IMG/VR virus record: IMGVR_UViG_3300009169_000026
Coordinates: 1 to 58,058 of that record
Strand: one strand, 5' to 3'
DNA from: a virus
Length of the DNA stretch: 58,058 bases
The notes beneath the pieces are model-generated. The model did not search any database. It was not told the origin of the DNA and worked only from the letters and a program-made list of their open reading frames with translations. Shown one piece after another: positions 2,031 to 13,795 of the stretch (position 1 is its first letter; each line of letters opens with the position of its first letter). A program made the position numbers and the translations under genes.

Positions 2031-2104
2031 CAGGCACACCAAGGACTTGAACCTAGATCAAACCGTTTTGGAGGCGGTTGCTTTGCCAATTAAGCTAGTG
2101 GCCT
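2031..2104 (-). tRNA. tRNA-Trp (CCA)
   Basis: Cloverleaf on the minus strand: acceptor AGGCCAC pairs with GTG(T)GCCT if one U is bulged, D-stem GCTT/AAGC, anticodon loop CTCCAAA giving anticodon CCA, T-loop TTCAAGT. The bulge in the acceptor and an open C-A pair at the base of the anticodon loop are irregular. No CCA end is encoded. Confidence 0.8.
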
Positions 2105-2139
2105 TCATGTATGCTCAACAGAAGGGAGACGAAAAAAGA

Positions 2140-2209
2140 AGCGGGTACAGGAGTTGCACCTGTGATCTCTTGGTTATGAGCCAAGCGGGATACTGCTTCC
2201 CCAACCCGC
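2140..2209 (-). tRNA. tRNA-Met (CAT)
   Basis: Acceptor GCGGGT pairs with ACCCGC, the anticodon stem TTGG/CCAA encloses CTCATAA (anticodon CAT). The G1-C72 pair and the lack of a GGG/CCC anticodon stem fit an elongator rather than an initiator. Lysidine-modified Ile-CAU cannot be excluded. T-loop GTGCAACTC is a little irregular. No CCA is encoded. Confidence 0.8.
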
Positions 2210-2215
2210 AACATT

Positions 2216-2323
2216 GTTTGCCTGGCGTCGCAAAAAAGCGCCAGGGCGACGTGTCCTGTGTAAGAGTCCCTACACGAGGAGATCCGCCAGCTTCAAGCGT
2301 CCTTAAAGCCTATTGTGTCAAAC
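2216..2323 (-). ncRNA. structured RNA element between tRNAs
   Basis: No gene is seen here. The minus strand is closed by GTTTG (2323-2319) pairing with CAAAC (2220-2216). Inside are two strong hairpins: TCCTcGTGTA/TACACAGGA (2280-2252, 8-nt loop) and CCTGGCG/CGCCAGG (2245-2221, loop with six U). The layout recalls a tRNA with closing stem, middle arm and right arm, but there is no recognisable T-loop. It could be a degenerate tRNA or a processing/terminator structure. Confidence 0.4.
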
Positions 2324-2334
2324 GCAAACAGAAA

Positions 2335-2409
2335 TGGTTTCCATGGCAGGCCTTTCACCTGCACCCTCCACCTTCTACGGTGGCGCTCTTGTATTTAAGC
2401 TACACGGAA
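2335..2409 (-). tRNA. irregular tRNA-like gene with encoded CCA and 6-nt anticodon loop
   Basis: The acceptor TTCCGTG/CATGGAA is a full 7 bp, followed by A and an encoded CCA, the only CCA end seen in the array. D-stem GCTT/GAGC is present, but the D-loop lacks GG. The anticodon stem CCACC/GGTGG encloses only six bases (GTAGAA) and the T-stem GCAGG/CCTGC carries an atypical loop TGAAAGG. Opening one pair gives an 8-nt loop; GTA (Tyr) or TAG (Leu) would then be candidate anticodons. It abuts tRNA-Pro with no gap, so it is likely transcribed and processed with it. Confidence 0.55.
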
Positions 2410-2484
2410 TCAGAGTGGCAGGATTTGAACCTGCGTTGGCTCCGCTCCAAACGGAGTGACCTAACCAGACTGGCCCACACTCTG
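2410..2484 (-). tRNA. tRNA-Pro (TGG), first copy
   Basis: Acceptor CAGAGTG/CACTCTG with C1-G72 and A73, as is usual for proline tRNA; D-stem GGCC/GGTC; anticodon stem CTCCG/CGGAG around TTTGGAG (anticodon TGG); T-loop TTCAAAT. It directly follows the irregular tRNA-like gene at 2335-2409. No CCA is encoded. Confidence 0.9.
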
Positions 2485-2510
2485 TAGTATCTGACTAACA
2501 GAAAAGAAAC

Positions 2511-2582
2511 TAGGCTCGATGGGACTTGAACCCACACTTCATCGCTTAAGAGGCGAGGGTGCTACACTGACACTACGAGCCT
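2511..2582 (-). tRNA. tRNA-Lys (CTT)
   Basis: Acceptor AGGCTCG/CGAGCCT is perfect, D-stem GTGT/GCAC, anticodon loop CTCTTAA (anticodon CTT), T-loop TTCAAGT, discriminator A. It is complementary in codon coverage to the tRNA-Lys (TTT) at 11439-11511. Confidence 0.9.
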
Positions 2583-2594
2583 AAATCGGAAAGC

Positions 2595-3104
2595 TTACAG
2601 CTTTCGGTAGATAAAAACATTCCTGGTTCCGGTTAGAGGCCATCTCTCTTCGGTAAACCCTTCGGAAAGACCATGGCGTCTCTCATCAAATTTGAATTCA
2701 CGCTTCTCCAGGAGAAGACCTTGCGTACCAAGGTAGGCAAGTTGCTTTTCTGTTGGAGCACTTGTTATGTCCACGAACACAGAGCCAGACGGCAGGTCAG
2801 CTACCAGACTGTACAGGTCATCATTGACCCATAGCAGGTATACATCGCAAACGGGCAGTTCCATGCCCCTAAGATCGCCACAGATTATGTGTGATCGCCT
2901 GCTGGCGGGTACCTTGCTTGACATTAGCTCAATGCCAACAACCTTGTCAGAAATCCCTAGACACCGAATCTCTTCTAGAAGGTCTCCTGCTCCGCACCCA
3001 ATATCGCAGACTGACTTACCAGTCAGGATATCAGAAAGCGCAGGAACAAGATCCAACGGCGAACGCTCAGGCCACTTCTGTGCAGGATTTTGTTGTGTAG
3101 GCAT
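2595..3104 (-). CDS. class I SAM-dependent methyltransferase
   Basis: 169 residues. Motif I (VCDIGCGAGDLLEEI, residues ~33-47) is the glycine-rich SAM-binding loop of Rossmann methyltransferases, motif II is VVGIEL, and a GDLRGMELP segment follows at the usual post-II position. The strand SGSVFVDIT is the later core strand. The target is not shown by the sequence; no NPPY or SPPF catalytic motif of amino-DNA methylases is present. Its place between two tRNAs makes a tRNA or small RNA base a possible target, but this is only inference. The gene is flanked by tRNA-Lys and tRNA-Pro on the same strand. Confidence 0.8.
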   Translation of the reverse strand: MPTQQNPAQKWPERSPLDLVPALSDILTGKSVCDIGCGAGDLLEEIRCLGISDKVVGIELMSSKVPASRRSHIICGDLRGMELPVCDVYLLWVNDDLYSLVADLPSGSVFVDITSAPTEKQLAYLGTQGLLLEKREFKFDERRHGLSEGFTEERWPLTGTRNVFIYRKL

Positions 3105-3123
3105 TTATCATCCAAAAGGAAAA

Positions 3124-3197
3124 TCGGAGCAGCGGGATTTGAACTCGCAACATCTTGTACCCAAAACAAGTGGTCTACCAGATTGACCTATGCTCCG
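3124..3197 (-). tRNA. tRNA-Pro (TGG), second copy
   Basis: Acceptor CGGAGCA/TGCTCCG, D-stem GGTC/GACC, anticodon stem CTTGT/ACAAG around TTTGGGT (anticodon TGG), T-loop TTCAAAT. C1-G72 and A73 again fit proline. The body differs strongly from the copy at 2410-2484, so this is not a recent duplication. One mismatch lies in the T-stem. Confidence 0.87.
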
Positions 3198-3212
3198 ATA
3201 AGTAGCAAATAT

Positions 3213-3776
3213 TCAGCGGATTCTCTTGCAGATTAGCTCTACCTGCTCGGCAACCGCAGGAACCAAGTTAGCACTCTTCAAAAAAGAAGTTAAACCCATT
3301 CCGTTGTCATATGTGTGAAGGTGCTGTAGGAAGGTTCCTGTAATTTCCGAGGAAAAGTGCTCGGCCAGACACGCATCTCGTACAATACGCTTCATGTCTT
3401 GAAAGTCAAGGATTTCACACGCATAGAAATGCAAGTTTGTGGTTGGACCCTCCCAGGATGCGACATAGTGAATCTTGCGTTCATCACCGTCAGGCCTAAG
3501 AGGCGAGAAGTTAATCTCCTCTTTTAGTTCTCGGAGAAGAGCTTCTTCGGGCGTCTCGCCCTGGTCGATGTGTCCACCCGGAAATCCAATTCTACCATCC
3601 CACCGATTGATCATTAGAACCGTGGGAATGACCGTATTGCATACGATTTTCGGGGTTTCCTTGTAGTGCTCGTACAGCTTGTGTCCACGATGGTAAATTG
3701 CAACGTGGACCGCAGAACGTTTGTTCGGGTTTGCCGAGAATTCTGATGGCAGTTGCTTGAGGTTGACAGTGGACAT
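3213..3776 (-). CDS. Nudix hydrolase
   Basis: 187 residues. A Nudix box runs from residue ~67 to 89: FPGGHIDQGE, then seven residues to RELKEE, the Gx5Ex7REUxEE pattern that binds Mg2+; the usual later glycine is replaced by Asn. Such enzymes cleave nucleoside diphosphates linked to another moiety (NTPs, NAD, ADP-ribose, capped RNA 5' ends). The substrate cannot be read from the sequence. The gene is preceded at 3777-3833 by a purine-rich leader and followed by tRNA-Pro. In phages Nudix enzymes are linked to nucleotide clean-up, NAD metabolism or decapping of RNA. Confidence 0.9.
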   Translation of the reverse strand: MSTVNLKQLPSEFSANPNKRSAVHVAIYHRGHKLYEHYKETPKIVCNTVIPTVLMINRWDGRIGFPGGHIDQGETPEEALLRELKEEINFSPLRPDGDERKIHYVASWEGPTTNLHFYACEILDFQDMKRIVRDACLAEHFSSEITGTFLQHLHTYDNGMGLTSFLKSANLVPAVAEQVELICKRIR

Positions 3777-3833
3777 TGTCTTACTTGCTTTGAGAGAGAG
3801 TGAGTGAGAAGGAAATGAGGCGAATAATAACTA

Positions 3834-3916
3834 TGCCTAGGGTGGGAGTCGAACCCACACGCCCTTGCGGGCACCAGCTTCTGAGGCTGGAGTGTCTGCC
3901 ATTCCACCACCCAGGC
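3834..3916 (-). tRNA. tRNA-Leu (CAG)
   Basis: Class II tRNA. Acceptor GCCTGGG/CCTAGGC, D-arm of leucine type (GTGGAATGGCAGACAC), anticodon stem CCAGC/GCTGG around CTCAGAA (anticodon CAG), long variable arm GCCCGCAAGGGC, T-loop TTCGACT, A73. Confidence 0.93.
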
Positions 3917-3937
3917 AATTGGGAAGAGATAAGAAAA

Positions 3938-4010
3938 CTCCAGAGGTAGGCATCGAACCTACTCGCTCCTGATTAACAGTCAGGCGTCCCTCCAAAGGAA
4001 CCTCTCTGGA
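3938..4010 (-). tRNA. tRNA-Asn (GTT), first copy
   Basis: Acceptor TCCAGAG/CTCTGGA, anticodon stem CCTGA/TCAGG around CTGTTAA (anticodon GTT), T-loop TTCGATG, G73 as usual for Asn. A second, different tRNA-Asn lies at 4346-4417. Confidence 0.92.
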
Positions 4011-4021
4011 ACGAGAGAAAT

Positions 4022-4124
4022 CAACATCGGTGGGACTTAAACCCACAAAATCTCCCGTTCAGCCCTGGTTTGATAGTCCATAAGGCCTACAAGGGAGCAT
4101 GTCTGCCATTTCATCACAAACATC
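4022..4124 (-). tRNA. irregular tRNA-Leu-like gene with a greatly extended anticodon arm
   Basis: The D-arm GTGATGAAATGGCAGACATG closely resembles that of the tRNA-Leu at 3834, and the T-arm GTGGG-TTTAAGT-CCCAC is normal. Between them the stem CTCCC/GGGAG encloses 36 nt instead of 7. Those 36 nt can fold on: internal loop, GCCTT/AGGGC, a 2-nt bulge, GG/CC and an apical loop ACTATCAAA. The ends pair poorly as an acceptor (mostly G-U pairs between GATGTTT and CGATGTT). It may be a degenerate gene, a gene with a 29-nt insertion, or a purposely modified tRNA. No anticodon can be assigned with confidence. Confidence 0.5.
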
Positions 4125-4133
4125 AAAAGAAAG

Positions 4134-4221
4134 TGCCGTGGGGGGAGAGTCGAACTCCCACGGGATTTTACTCCCGCTGGGTTCTTAGCCCAGTGCGTGC
4201 TACCAGTTTCGCCACCTCGGC
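4134..4221 (-). tRNA. tRNA-Leu (AAG)
   Basis: Class II tRNA. Acceptor GCCGAGG/CCACGGC with one A-A mismatch, anticodon stem CTGGG/CCCAG around CTAAGAA, giving anticodon AAG. The variable arm CGGGAGTAAAATCCCG is typical. A34 is rare in bacterial tRNAs outside Arg-ACG and would need deamination to inosine for wider decoding. One extra C lies between the T-stem and the acceptor. Confidence 0.85.
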
Positions 4222-4232
4222 ATAAAGAGAAA

Positions 4233-4318
4233 TGGGGCTGGATGGACTTGAACCACCGACCGTCCCTGGGTAACTCGAGTCCCCAAGGATGCTCTGCAAA
4301 CAACTGAGCTACAGCCCT
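4233..4318 (-). tRNA. irregular tRNA with a 10-step anticodon stem
   Basis: Acceptor (A)GGGCTG/CAGCCC(C), D-stem GCTC/GAGC and T-arm GGTGG-TTCAAGT-CCATC are normal, and the variable loop has 5 nt. The anticodon arm is 10 nt too long: TCCTTGGG (4289-4282) pairs perfectly, with one G-U, with CCCAGGGA (4270-4263); a G-A mismatch and an A-T pair then lead to the 7-nt loop CTCGAGT. The arm is thus extended by exactly five pairs. Read in the usual place the anticodon is CGA, yet the body is class I, not serine-like. Position 1-72 is an A-C mismatch. Confidence 0.65.
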
Positions 4319-4345
4319 TCAAAAGGGAAAGAAAAGAAGAAGAAA

Positions 4346-4417
4346 CTCCTGGGGCTGGGATCGAACCAGCGACCATCCGGTTAACAGCCGGACGCTCTTC
4401 CACTGAGCTACCCAGGA
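4346..4417 (-). tRNA. tRNA-Asn (GTT), second copy
   Basis: Acceptor TCCTGGG/CCCAGGA, D-stem GCTC/GAGC, anticodon stem TCCGG/CCGGA around CTGTTAA (anticodon GTT), T-loop TTCGATC, G73. All arms are regular. Confidence 0.94.
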
Positions 4418-4784
4418 ACAAAGAAGCACTCCCTCGCCTCTCAGTAACCCTTTTTTGAGAAGCGTTGCTGAGAGAGACAGGAGGGAAACACTTCCAAGGA
4501 TTTCATGTGCTATAGGATTCTACCTGAGCTGCGCCTCGTCCCATCCCCACATTACGCAGGGACAGGCCACTCAGGAAAAACAAGCTCTTCTAAGGAGCCC
4601 TGCCGTTTTTTTGTTCTGTTCTTAGGGAACCCTTCCAGGACCCAGCGAGACACGATTAGGCTATAGCCTCCTATAGATACACATGAAGTTTTTTGTGACT
4701 GCCCTGGGGCCCCCGCCCTTGGGGCGGCTGAGACCGGTCTCAAGTCCACTCCACCGTTTACGTCGGCGTAAGGTTCAATCACAA
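4418..4784 (-). other. 367-nt interval in the tRNA island without a convincing gene
   Basis: No tRNA or clear coding region is visible. Structures seen are an 11-bp inverted repeat CTCTCAGTAAC/GTTGCTGAGAG (4438-4475), a short hairpin with loop CTTAGAA followed on the minus strand by TTGTTTTT (about 4600-4577, terminator-like), a 12-nt perfect palindrome GAGACCGGTCTC (4730-4741) and a GC-rich hairpin around 4702-4727. A GTG-initiated reading frame of 76 codons crosses 4782-4552 but has no ribosome binding site and atypical composition. I think this is processed spacer RNA or decayed tRNA sequence. Confidence 0.45.
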
Positions 4785-4858
4785 TGCTGCTGCCAGGAGT
4801 CGAACCTGGGCCATTTAGCTTATCAGGCCAAATAGGTAATACCGTACCGTCCAGCAGC
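4785..4858 (-). tRNA. tRNA-Ile (GAT)
   Basis: Acceptor GCTGCTG/CAGCAGC is perfect, D-stem GGTA/TACC, anticodon stem TTGGC/GCTAA around CTGATAA (anticodon GAT), T-arm CCAGG-TTCGACT-CCTGG, A73. Confidence 0.9.
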
Positions 4859-4874
4859 GTAACACAGAAAATTC

Positions 4875-4946
4875 ACGTTGAAGGGGGATTTGAACCCGCC
4901 ACCTCCATCGCTCCAGGATGGCTCTGCTACTTTACACAATCCAACA
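4875..4946 (-). tRNA. irregular tRNA-like gene, anticodon GGA
   Basis: Acceptor TGTTGGA/TTCAACG pairs with two G-U pairs, the anticodon stem CCATC/GATGG encloses CTGGAGC (anticodon GGA, Ser), and the T-loop is TTCAAAT. It has a 5-nt variable loop, unlike every bacterial serine tRNA, a weak T-stem (one C-C mismatch) and no clear D-stem. A regular class II tRNA-Ser (GGA) exists at 7366-7452, so this copy is redundant for decoding and may be a decaying or specialised RNA. Confidence 0.55.
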
Positions 4947-4960
4947 GAACAATTCTGCTA

Positions 4961-5031
4961 CGGACCCAAGGGGGAACGAACCCCCACCTTCTCCCGTGAC
5001 AGGGGAGTGCTCTACATTAAGCTACGGGTCC
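4961..5031 (-). tRNA. tRNA-Asp (GTC)
   Basis: Acceptor GGACCCG/TGGGTCC, D-stem GCTT/GAGC, anticodon stem CTCCC/GGGAG around CTGTCAC (anticodon GTC), T-arm GGGGG-TTCGTTC-CCCCT, G73 as usual for Asp. Confidence 0.9.
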
Positions 5032-5184
5032 AAGAAATGGACTTGGAAGGAATTTCTAAGCCAAAGAATCGGCCTAGAGAACACCACCAAATCCATAGTT
5101 TGGTTTATTCTATTCTGTTTTCAGAGTGAATGATAGAGAACTGTCCCCTCCCACTTGGGGGCAGGGTATGCAGTTCCTATCAAC

Positions 5185-5256
5185 ATTCTCGTTGGGAGTC
5201 GAACCCAAAATATCAGCTTCGTAGGCTGATGTGATAATCCAGTTTCACCACGAGAA
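5185..5256 (-). tRNA. tRNA-Arg (ACG)
   Basis: Acceptor TTCTCGT/ACGAGAA, D-arm TGAAACTGGATTATCA, anticodon stem TCAGC/GCTGA around CTACGAA (anticodon ACG, normally modified to ICG), T-arm TGGG-TTCGACT-CCCA. This is the first tRNA after promoter P2. The 150 nt between it and tRNA-Asp hold no gene, only a short hairpin at 5141-5164. Confidence 0.92.
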
Positions 5257-5338
5257 CAAAGTTAGACGAAGAAAAAGATGAGGAAGTGAAAATTTCGGGT
5301 CAGAGCGACTCTTCCTGCAATCCCTAAAGGCTACAACC

Positions 5339-5448: not shown

Positions 5449-6369
5449 TCAAAGCCCACTAAGACCAAGCTTTCGGAGGTCAGCCTTACCCATCTGCTTC
5501 AATTCGTAGCAATACACATCTGCTCCGTAATACCTAGTCAGTTCTCTCACGTAGGGATCCTTCACACCCGGATAGGCGTAAAGATTCTGGCTGGTCAAAG
5601 CCTTTCTCTCATTGGAGAGAGCCCACTGGTACACGTCACTGATGCTTGGCCCCTGCCACACCAGAGCCTTCTTCACCGACTCGGGCCGGGTGTCATAGGG
5701 GTTGTCAATCTGAGGAGGTGCAACGTACTTCCCTTCCGGGATCTTCCTGAGCAGGGCCCAGAACCACGGACCCTCGGGATCCGGCCTGACAGCCCACTTC
5801 ATGGTCTCAACACGAACTTCATAGCTCTTTCGCAGTTCCCTTGCAGCCTTGGCGGGATTGACCCTGACTCGCTGCGGGGCAACACACAGAATTCCGGTGC
5901 GAGGATCGACGTAGAACTTGCGCCACCCACGCTCGCTGAGAATCTTTCGATTCTCATGACTTCGTCCCCTTCCATGAAGGTGGTGAGGGTAGCACATCGA
6001 ACCATCCTCCTCGGAAATGGTAGGATTCACGATGACGTACTGAAACAAGTGCTGATAGACGTGTGCCCCGATAACGGAGGTCTTGGGGCAGGTCCTGACA
6101 ATCTCCGAGTAAACGTCATTCCACTTACGTCCACGAGCGGAGAAGAGAAAGTTCGTGAGAACGGAAAGGTTCTCAGAAAACACCTTGGTCTTTCGAGACA
6201 TTCCGAAAGGGCTGCGCTTGATTCCACGCTTGGCTCCCGGAGCCCAATCCTCATAGTCAGACTGACGTTCATCACGCTGACGAGCCTTTACCAGGCCCTT
6301 GTTTTTCTTGCCGTATCCGTAATCGGATCGCTCGTGCTCACACAGGAGCTTTTTGAAATCGGGTCGCAT
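5449..6369 (-). CDS. conserved phage protein of unknown function, 306 aa
   Basis: Starts MRPDFKKLLCEHER, then a basic region (KARQRDERQ, KRGIKRSPFG), WNDVYSEIVR near residue 85, a histidine-rich PHHLHGRGRSHENR near residue 130 and KFYVDPRTGILC near residue 150. I recall these as features of an uncharacterised family found in many bacteria and phages, but no function is known to me. It is strongly basic and soluble, which may suggest RNA or DNA binding. The ATG is 9 nt after the -10 of promoter P3, so the message would be nearly leaderless; no other in-frame ATG near the N-terminus fits. It is not a recognised enzyme. Confidence 0.75.
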   Translation of the reverse strand: MRPDFKKLLCEHERSDYGYGKKNKGLVKARQRDERQSDYEDWAPGAKRGIKRSPFGMSRKTKVFSENLSVLTNFLFSARGRKWNDVYSEIVRTCPKTSVIGAHVYQHLFQYVIVNPTISEEDGSMCYPHHLHGRGRSHENRKILSERGWRKFYVDPRTGILCVAPQRVRVNPAKAARELRKSYEVRVETMKWAVRPDPEGPWFWALLRKIPEGKYVAPPQIDNPYDTRPESVKKALVWQGPSISDVYQWALSNERKALTSQNLYAYPGVKDPYVRELTRYYGADVYCYELKQMGKADLRKLGLSGL

Positions 6370-7254: not shown

Positions 7255-7346
7255 CGGAAGGCAGAGGACTCGAACCCCAGTCCCGATAAAGGGGCCCATC
7301 TATTTAGCAAACAGAGCCGCCGTCCGATTACGACGATTTACCTTCC
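7255..7346 (-). tRNA. tRNA-Ser (GCT)
   Basis: Class II. Acceptor GGAAGGT/GCCTTCC, anticodon stem TCTGT/ATAGA around TTGCTAA (anticodon GCT), long variable arm with GGGCCCC/GGGAC, T-loop TTCGAGT, G73 as in serine tRNAs. It lies 32 nt upstream of the release factor start. Confidence 0.9.
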
Positions 7347-12471: not shown

Positions 12472-13500
12472 TCACTTCTCAAGGTAACGATTAGAGACGT
12501 ACTTCAAAGCAACACGCCCAATGTCATAGTTGCGTCGCTCGTTTACAACCTTTACCACGACGCCCTCTCGGACGTGGCCCGCACTATTGAAGGTCTCATT
12601 CTGCTCAGCAAGCTCAGCAATAACCTTGGGGTCATTGGGACCAGCATACAGAACGGGAAGGAAGTTCAATCCAGCATAGTCGGGGTGCGAAAACTCCGAA
12701 TTAACGACCCAACGATTATCTCGCAGAATGTCGAAGATTACCACGCCAAACTGGTTGTTGGCCAGACCGTAGTGAAATCCCCGCTGAATCTGGGGTCCGA
12801 ATACCTCGGCATAGAGGACGACACCGGGATGATCCTTGCACCAAGCCTCAAGCCATGGATTCTGCTCATTGGCAGCCCACCACGCATTCTGTTTTACCTC
12901 AATAGGCTCTGCATCCCCAGCAGGAAAAATCATGGAACCAGGACGCATCTTCCACTGCGTCCGGCTGCCGCACCACATTCGATCACCGTGCCAAACGAAG
13001 CGTGCATTGCAACCATGGATCTTAGGAGTAAGGATAATATCCTCGCCATCCTCTAGGATGGAGCGGTACTTCTTCCAATTCTCGAGATCGTACTTTGGGG
13101 CAAGGATCTCAGGACCCTTCTCCGCAAAGGCTCCCTTAACCATTAGCTCCTCTGGAGGCTCGTACCGTGTAACCCCAAGACCCTCAATGACATTGTCTCC
13201 CTCGACAGAGCCGGGGGGAGCGGCAATCAAAAGACCCTGAGAGTAAACTCCACGCAGGCGACGAACGGCAATACGGTGGCGTGGTCGATCCTTTCCTGGC
13301 TTAGCCAGGAAGGAAAACTCCGGTCGGTCTAGAGGGACCTCGTAGTCAGGCTCAATGTAGGCCGCAAGATCACCGACCTTGAAAGAATCCTTTCGGATTG
13401 CACAAATGTATCCCCAAACCGGGATCAACTCAAGGGAGTCGGCATCGGGGTGCGGAGTGATCTCGGTGATCTTAATCACATTAACTGCGTGTGTACTCAT
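12472..13500 (-). CDS. RNA ligase, DRB0094/Rnl5-like
   Basis: 342 residues. The adenylation domain shows motif I TPKIHGCNAR (Lys ~160, which takes the AMP), motif III-like VVLYAEVFGPQ (~227-237), motif IV EGVVVK (~312-317) and motif V VALKYVS (~330-336). The N-terminal ~110 residues form an OB-like domain with ITEITPHPDADSLELIPVWG, as in the Deinococcus DRB0094 ligase (Rnl5), which seals 3'-OH/5'-phosphate nicks. The ATG at 13500 is chosen over upstream non-ATG codons. In a phage with many tRNAs the likely task is resealing RNAs, such as tRNAs cut by host anticodon nucleases. That task is inferred; no polynucleotide kinase is seen in the window. Confidence 0.88.
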   Translation of the reverse strand: MSTHAVNVIKITEITPHPDADSLELIPVWGYICAIRKDSFKVGDLAAYIEPDYEVPLDRPEFSFLAKPGKDRPRHRIAVRRLRGVYSQGLLIAAPPGSVEGDNVIEGLGVTRYEPPEELMVKGAFAEKGPEILAPKYDLENWKKYRSILEDGEDIILTPKIHGCNARFVWHGDRMWCGSRTQWKMRPGSMIFPAGDAEPIEVKQNAWWAANEQNPWLEAWCKDHPGVVLYAEVFGPQIQRGFHYGLANNQFGVVIFDILRDNRWVVNSEFSHPDYAGLNFLPVLYAGPNDPKVIAELAEQNETFNSAGHVREGVVVKVVNERRNYDIGRVALKYVSNRYLEK

Positions 13501-13795
13501 TGGCTTTACTTTCTGCTGGTTTTTCCAGAGTTTCAATCACTCTTACAATGGTGTCGAGGTACCAGACGGGTACCATCCAGACATGGTCTTGAATCAAGAA
13601 CCGGGCTACTGAACAATCAAGAGAGGTGCTGACCACCGTATCAAGATACACGAGAATGGTGCCAGGCTCTAGGACCTTGGGAAGGACACTTCTGTTTCTC
13701 CATTTAGTGCTGTTCAGTGAATCCGGTGACATAGTCACCATCACGGTGCGAGTGACAATATAGGTATCGCCCGGCCTTTTGAAATACGTGTACAT
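13481..13795 (-). CDS. small beta-rich paralogue, 104 aa
   Basis: ATG at 13795 follows the TAA of the preceding coding segment directly (TAAAATG). The C-terminal part VLEPGTILVYLDTVV and WMVPVWYLDTIVRVIE matches the paralogous pattern 'P-x-T-h-h-h-h...h-W/Y-h...Y-h-x-h-h-R-V'. No catalytic residues stand out. It overlaps the RNA ligase start by 20 nt. A small SH3-like binding module is the best guess. Confidence 0.6.
   Translation of the reverse strand: MYTYFKRPGDTYIVTRTVMVTMSPDSLNSTKWRNRSVLPKVLEPGTILVYLDTVVSTSLDCSVARFLIQDHVWMVPVWYLDTIVRVIETLEKPAESKANEYTRS

Follow-up and report, generated by a model that had tools for sequence, protein, structure and literature searches.

Bacterial Y RNAs of the YrlA type carry a tRNA-like domain; the accessible part of PMC7790460 describes a Ro60-Y RNA-rtcBA operon and proposes YrlA as a competitive inhibitor of an anticodon nuclease. 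Y RNAs are also reported in mycobacteriophages, as far as the accessible part of PMC12282133 goes. Phage tRNAs with nuclease-evading changes in the anticodon loop are still meant to decode, according to the available sections of PMC10264068, and where group I or archaeal introns interrupt tRNA genes, the anticodon arm carries extra sequence. The tRNA-like gene described here (the element) is like YrlA in having a tRNA-like body on which something else stands in for an anticodon arm, like the nuclease-evading tRNAs in its altered anticodon region, and like the interrupted genes in its extra anticodon-arm sequence. It differs from the tRNAs in those sections of PMC10264068 in that the arm itself, rather than the loop, is rebuilt. 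In the literature searched, which left most subscription journals and nearly all preprints outside, we found no account that treats phage tRNAs with enlarged arms as a class.

The window, i.e. the whole stretch of DNA that was analysed, comprises 58,058 bases and is the entire virus record. The element lies on its minus strand and matches the Rfam tRNA family RF00005 along the full model (1-71) with 40.5 bits, against a gathering threshold of 29. The initial annotation had called a tRNA at this locus, which is confirmed, and the tRNA identity of the element is far beyond chance. Its minus-strand sequence, 5' to 3', is AGGGCTG-TA-GCTC-AGTTGTTTGCA-GAGC-A-TCCTTGGGGACTCGAGTTACCCAGGGA-CGGTC-GGTGG-TTCAAGT-CCATC-CAGCCCC-A. 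The coordinates of its parts, and of other features of the record, are collected in the table.

Table. Coordinates and basis of the element, its parts and other features in the window.
Feature	Position	Strand	Basis
tRNA-like gene with 27-nt anticodon arm (the element)	4233..4318	-	Rfam RF00005, 40.5 bits; no ARAGORN call
Acceptor stem, 5' strand AGGGCTG; partner 4234-4240; 1-72 is A.C	4312..4318	-	Sequence
D-arm GCTC / AGTTGTTTGCA / GAGC; 4-bp stem, loop without G19	4291..4309	-	Sequence
Enlarged anticodon arm, 27 nt; 8-bp stem (4282-4289 with 4263-4270), 11-nt loop GACTCGAGTTA	4263..4289	-	Sequence; folding; excision test
T-arm GGTGG / TTCAAGT / CCATC; 5/5 paired	4241..4257	-	Sequence
Acceptor stem, 3' strand CAGCCCC; A73 at 4233; CCA not encoded	4234..4240	-	Sequence
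tRNA array containing the element; 13 Rfam tRNA matches above cut-off	2032..5258	-	Rfam
Second long-anticodon-arm tRNA-like gene; arm 46 nt by manual parse	4027..4128	-	Rfam, 22.7 bits over 4027-4119
ATP-dependent RNA ligase, possible tRNA repair	12472..13536	-	Pfam RNA_ligase PF09414; nearest solved relative Naegleria gruberi RNA ligase

The element shares with canonical class I tRNAs the acceptor, D and T arms, a variable loop of 5 nt (CGGTC), U8, A14, G15, C48 and the T-loop consensus. It is unlike them in its long anticodon arm without a canonical anticodon loop, and where canonical tRNAs have G18-G19 and a standard 1-72 pair it has GU and A.C. This A1.C72 is the only non-standard pair among the 24 stem pairs (acceptor 7, D 4, arm 8, T 5); the T-stem, the D-stem and the base stem of the anticodon arm are free of mismatches. 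The D-arm, T-arm and variable loop had been annotated as normal. This holds for the T-arm, the variable loop and the fully paired D-stem (4/4), but not for the D-loop, in which G19 is missing. The same GU is found in otherwise regular tRNAs of the array at 2138 (Met), 2510 (Lys) and 4960 (Asp), so the missing G19 is not specific to the element.

The anticodon arm, counted after base 26 (4289-4263), exceeds the 17 nt of a canonical tRNA by 10 nt, just as had been annotated. The annotated stem of 8 bp, TCCTTGGG/CCCAGGGA with one G.U, is contiguous and certain. Five extra pairs had been proposed, of which three (GGG/CCC) are certain and two are not preferred by folding. In place of the proposed G-A and A-T pairs on a 7-nt loop CUCGAGU, the minimum free energy fold continues the 8-bp stem with one bulged A and then with G.U, A-U and C-G (pair probabilities 0.64-0.79) on a UCGA tetraloop. 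A canonical tRNA has a 17-nt arm with a 7-nt loop, U33 and R37; with its 27-nt arm and preferred UCGA tetraloop the element departs from this, and the earlier suggestion that it cannot decode is well supported.

Chance levels were calculated conditional on the inherited 5-bp stem. Three or more pairs beyond this stem occur in 7.1% of composition shuffles when wobble pairs are allowed, in 2.4% when only Watson-Crick pairs are counted, and in 5.3% of uniform random sequences; 3.1% of inner shuffles equal the folding energy of the arm. The regular extension beyond 5 bp is no more than suggestive. Since three extra pairs arise by chance at a level of 2-7%, the structure alone is weak evidence.

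For the excision test, a contiguous stretch of 10 nt was removed at each of the 18 possible positions of the arm, and a product was considered canonical if it had at least 4 pairs, Y32, U33 and R37. No position (0/18) leaves a canonical arm. Three products bear U33, and all of them have the loop GTTACCC with C37. In the control, 25 archaeal arms with interruptions, the same procedure restored a canonical arm in every case; 20 of these arms are archaeal by title and five (L355, L356, L362, L386, L389) are assumed to be archaeal from their sequence. That no 10-nt excision restores a canonical loop in the element counts against an intron and also against a single simple insertion.

Similar genes were collected from IMG/VR with a pattern in which the T-arm comes too late after a class I D-arm; it matched at least 120 stretches, and no frequency can be derived from it. 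Among the matches listed, 92 of 121 occurrences have an acceptor stem with at least 6/7 and a T-stem with at least 4/5 positions paired; the 29 occurrences below these thresholds and five duplicate cores were left out. Of the resulting 87 distinct cores among the matches listed, 52 have a long arm whose base stem is paired, 20 are unclassed and 15 are class II or resemble class II. The listed long-arm phage genes have intact acceptor, D and T arms and anticodon arms of 24-54 nt. The window element has the features by which this set is defined, namely a class I tRNA body, an anticodon arm longer than 17 nt and a normal variable loop.

Two genes (L041 and L046), class II or chimeric, were excluded from the counts over 70 elements and from the excision counts. 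Among the long-armed or unclassed elements listed, C48, which was not part of the search pattern, is present in 68/70, and the acceptor stem is fully paired (7/7) in 57/70; N73 varies, and 13 of the 70 encode CCA. U33 is found in 15/52 of the long-armed elements listed, which is background level, and excision gives a canonical arm in 11/50, against 7.4 expected from shuffles. The low U33 count and the near-shuffle level of excision indicate that most of the listed long-arm genes are neither decoding tRNAs nor intron carriers. At least 8 contiguous outer pairs, as in the element, are found in 2/52 listed long arms. Three long-arm or unclassed tRNA-like genes (L096, L130, L132) lie on contigs that have related ORFs in common, with lengths of about 722, 301 and 221-231 aa; we take these to resemble the early region of transposable phages.

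In two small phage families the arm motif, in the loop, is kept while the acceptor stem changes on both sides: TTTGCG in L047/L076/L125/L145 and GGTRAAGGRCCAAA in L074/L146/L151. Excision restores a canonical arm in one of their seven members (L047). As judged from such sequence comparison, the two families give good evidence for the maintenance of some long-arm genes as RNAs, and no proof for the window element. GenBank searches with four long-arm elements gave no full-length informative match.

The element itself has no counterpart in the collections searched. An exact-pattern scan for its arm gave 0 matches, no DNA relative was found in the phage collection at megablast sensitivity, and a pattern of its T-arm and acceptor stem matched only two other tRNA or tRNA-like genes on unrelated contigs. 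Protein queries were used for finding relatives of the phage. The protein at 5449-6369 led to 2 distant contigs; the Nudix protein and the amidoligase gave no close relatives. The terminase gave 19 loci, and the seven nearest complete relatives are 73-78% identical. Five of the terminase relatives (L023-L027) have the order of the amidoligase region in common with the window. The relatives have fewer tRNAs than the window phage, and no homologue of the element was seen in the regions read. One of them has a tRNA-Arg(UCU)-like gene in which the D-arm is reduced and the variable region holds a hairpin (L027:14916-14995, minus strand, 32.3 bits).

Within the 20 records searched, the only long-arm tRNA is a tRNA-Asn(GUU) split between U35 and U36 by 48 extra nt (L023:7791-7911 and L024:7608-7728), with no Rfam intron match. 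The tRNA-Asn(GUU) of L026 (7862-8060) has a group I intron at this same site, and the tRNA-Asn genes of L025 and L028 have no insert there.

Rfam counts 18 tRNA genes on the window and ARAGORN 16; both also report a tmRNA. Some neighbours of the element in the array are irregular. The second long-arm gene, 4027-4128 (minus strand), is Tyr- or Leu-like with a short variable loop, and a 29-nt excision would yield the canonical loop TTGTAAC with anticodon GUA. The gene at 4875-4946 reaches 22.3 bits with Rfam. At 2338-2410 (minus strand), absent from the Rfam output, there is a tRNA-like sequence with a 6-nt anticodon loop, a short D-loop and the T-loop TGAAAGG. The RNA ligase of the record is consistent with tRNA repair and with tRNA damage during infection.

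We regard it as an even call that the element is an RNA of tRNA shape which has lost its decoding function, and this is the reading we favour. The acceptor, D and T arms together with C48 would maintain an L-shaped upper body, on which the anticodon arm would have been rebuilt into a longer hairpin without a usable anticodon. The RNA would probably be co-transcribed with the tRNA array and processed like a tRNA, by RNase P and CCA addition. Its putative role, close to the decoy suggested in the initial annotation, would be to occupy or divert a host tRNA-binding factor; candidates are anticodon nucleases and other defence enzymes directed at tRNAs, which would recognise the tRNA body and find no normal loop to cut. 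The sequence, the fold class and the failure of excision are observed on the element itself, and similar genes are widespread in phages. A decaying tRNA gene is the main alternative, possible if somewhat doubtful: a copy in a relaxed array would have gained bases in the anticodon arm and lost its function with the other arms still present. Relaxation fits A1.C72 and the missing G19, although the latter recurs in regular tRNAs of the array, and the irregular neighbours (4027-4128, 4875-4946, 2338-2410), the chance level of the extra pairs and the lack of a conserved homologue in the searches by arm pattern and by DNA in the phage collection point the same way. Decay would however need more than one step in the arm, because no single 10-nt excision gives a canonical loop, and the D-stem, T-stem and base stem have all remained without mismatch. 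The initial annotation had argued for a structured change rather than decay; the excision result, the many long-arm phage genes and the families with compensatory stems speak for that view, and the points just listed in favour of decay speak against it.

The remaining explanations are weaker than either the non-decoding RNA or decay. It is improbable that the element is a precursor tRNA with a tiny intron, from which removal of about 10 nt would give a normal anticodon loop. Interrupted tRNAs do occur in relatives (the tRNA-Asn of L023/L024 with 48 nt and that of L026 with its group I intron), and the neighbour at 4027-4128 can be restored by removal of 29 nt; in the element, however, every excision fails to give Y32, U33 and R37, the best product being GTTACCC with C37. 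No intron family, including group I, is matched by Rfam in the window, and no RtcB is present in the record. On the excision test the intron reading is rejected for the element only, not for L023/L024 or 4027-4128. Very improbable is a Y RNA of YrlA type, a partner of Ro60/Rsr in which another module replaces the anticodon arm of a tRNA-like domain. The element's arm is far shorter than that of YrlA and has no recognised Ro-binding module. Rfam RF02553 has no match at gathering in the window, nor at E up to 5 in 4015-4340. A TROVE domain is absent from the 58-kb record (possibly a genome fragment), from 9 records of relatives and from 68/70 of the listed long-arm phage records; in the other two it lies about 35 and 22 kb from their own long-arm genes. 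The element was not filed as a Y RNA, even though YrlA has a tRNA-like domain (accessible part of PMC7790460), mycobacteriophages are reported to have Y RNAs (accessible part of PMC12282133) and a long-arm tRNA-like gene adjoins rtcB in Chryseobacterium. A sequencing or assembly error is a slimmer chance again: the record is a single metagenomic contig of an unisolated virus, but the extra bases form a paired GC-rich stem without homopolymer run or tandem repeat, and similar genes occur in many independent contigs. Hardly credible is a decoding tRNA whose long arm is still ribosome-competent and reads with CGA of the loop CTCGAGT. Such a 7-nt loop would, if formed, have U33 and G37, yet it is not the preferred fold, the arm is about five base pairs too long, and CGA denotes serine where the variable loop is short.

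The element may thus do a job other than codon reading, and its interest rests mainly on the wider set. We tentatively suggest, at somewhat under even confidence, that tRNA-shaped RNAs with other hairpins in place of the anticodon arm are carried by many unrelated phages. On this view they are tRNA mimics that do not decode and form a dispersed class; selection would keep their tRNA body, and their targets would be host proteins that bind tRNA or defences directed at tRNA. The window element would be a short-armed member within a tRNA array. It has long been asked why phages carry tRNAs. Genes with a tRNA body that are unable to decode would exclude codon supply as the reason for those genes, and they would make a testable case that phages use the tRNA shape itself, for example against tRNA-cutting defences. 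Long-arm genes are easily overlooked, because ARAGORN omits the element and, for many of the other genes, leaves the anticodon unassigned or in doubt; on 52 loci of the set it reported no other gene in 30 and one or more other genes in 22.

Of 128 occurrences in the genome collection, 43 have paired ends, and 35 of these are long-armed, mostly archaeal introns. A Chryseobacterium family (L299, L306, L341, L347 and L387, the last placed there by similarity) has a conserved tRNA-like gene whose anticodon arm measures about 52-55 nt. This gene lies upstream of an ORF of 583 aa and, in the 4/5 loci that extend so far, just downstream of the RtcB gene. This neighbourhood recalls the Ro60-Y RNA-rtcBA operon, as presented in the accessible part of PMC7790460. 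The 583-aa ORF has no Pfam or NCBIfam match, TROVE included, and no significant solved relative (best E 0.027); its predicted model, with a mean pLDDT of 35, is too poor for use. A TROVE/Ro60-like identity of this ORF is unsupported.

Two further observations concern RNA genes of the record. A probable tRNA-Ser(GCU) at 7255-7340 (minus strand), overlooked by ARAGORN and at the Rfam gathering threshold, immediately precedes a short ORF that resembles the start of a release factor. The phage tmRNA (16180-16535, minus strand) has the tag GSPKSIPSEWA according to ARAGORN. In relatives of the phage ARAGORN gives ANDSSYALAA or ANDNSYALAA, so the position of the tag may be miscalled.

As a control of specificity, a pattern for inserts in the D-loop was used; it gave at least 121 occurrences, from which no rate can be derived. 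Among the matches listed, 61/121 occurrences have paired ends, and 27/121 combine a D-loop insert with a normal anticodon arm. The anticodon arm as the sole variable site of phage tRNAs was therefore rejected. D-loop inserts in genes with normal anticodon arms imply that inserts may reflect a general tolerance of phage tRNAs rather than mark a dedicated class. Three phage tRNA-like genes (L160, L161, L212) have a long D-loop insert together with a short anticodon arm and a loop of tetraloop size.
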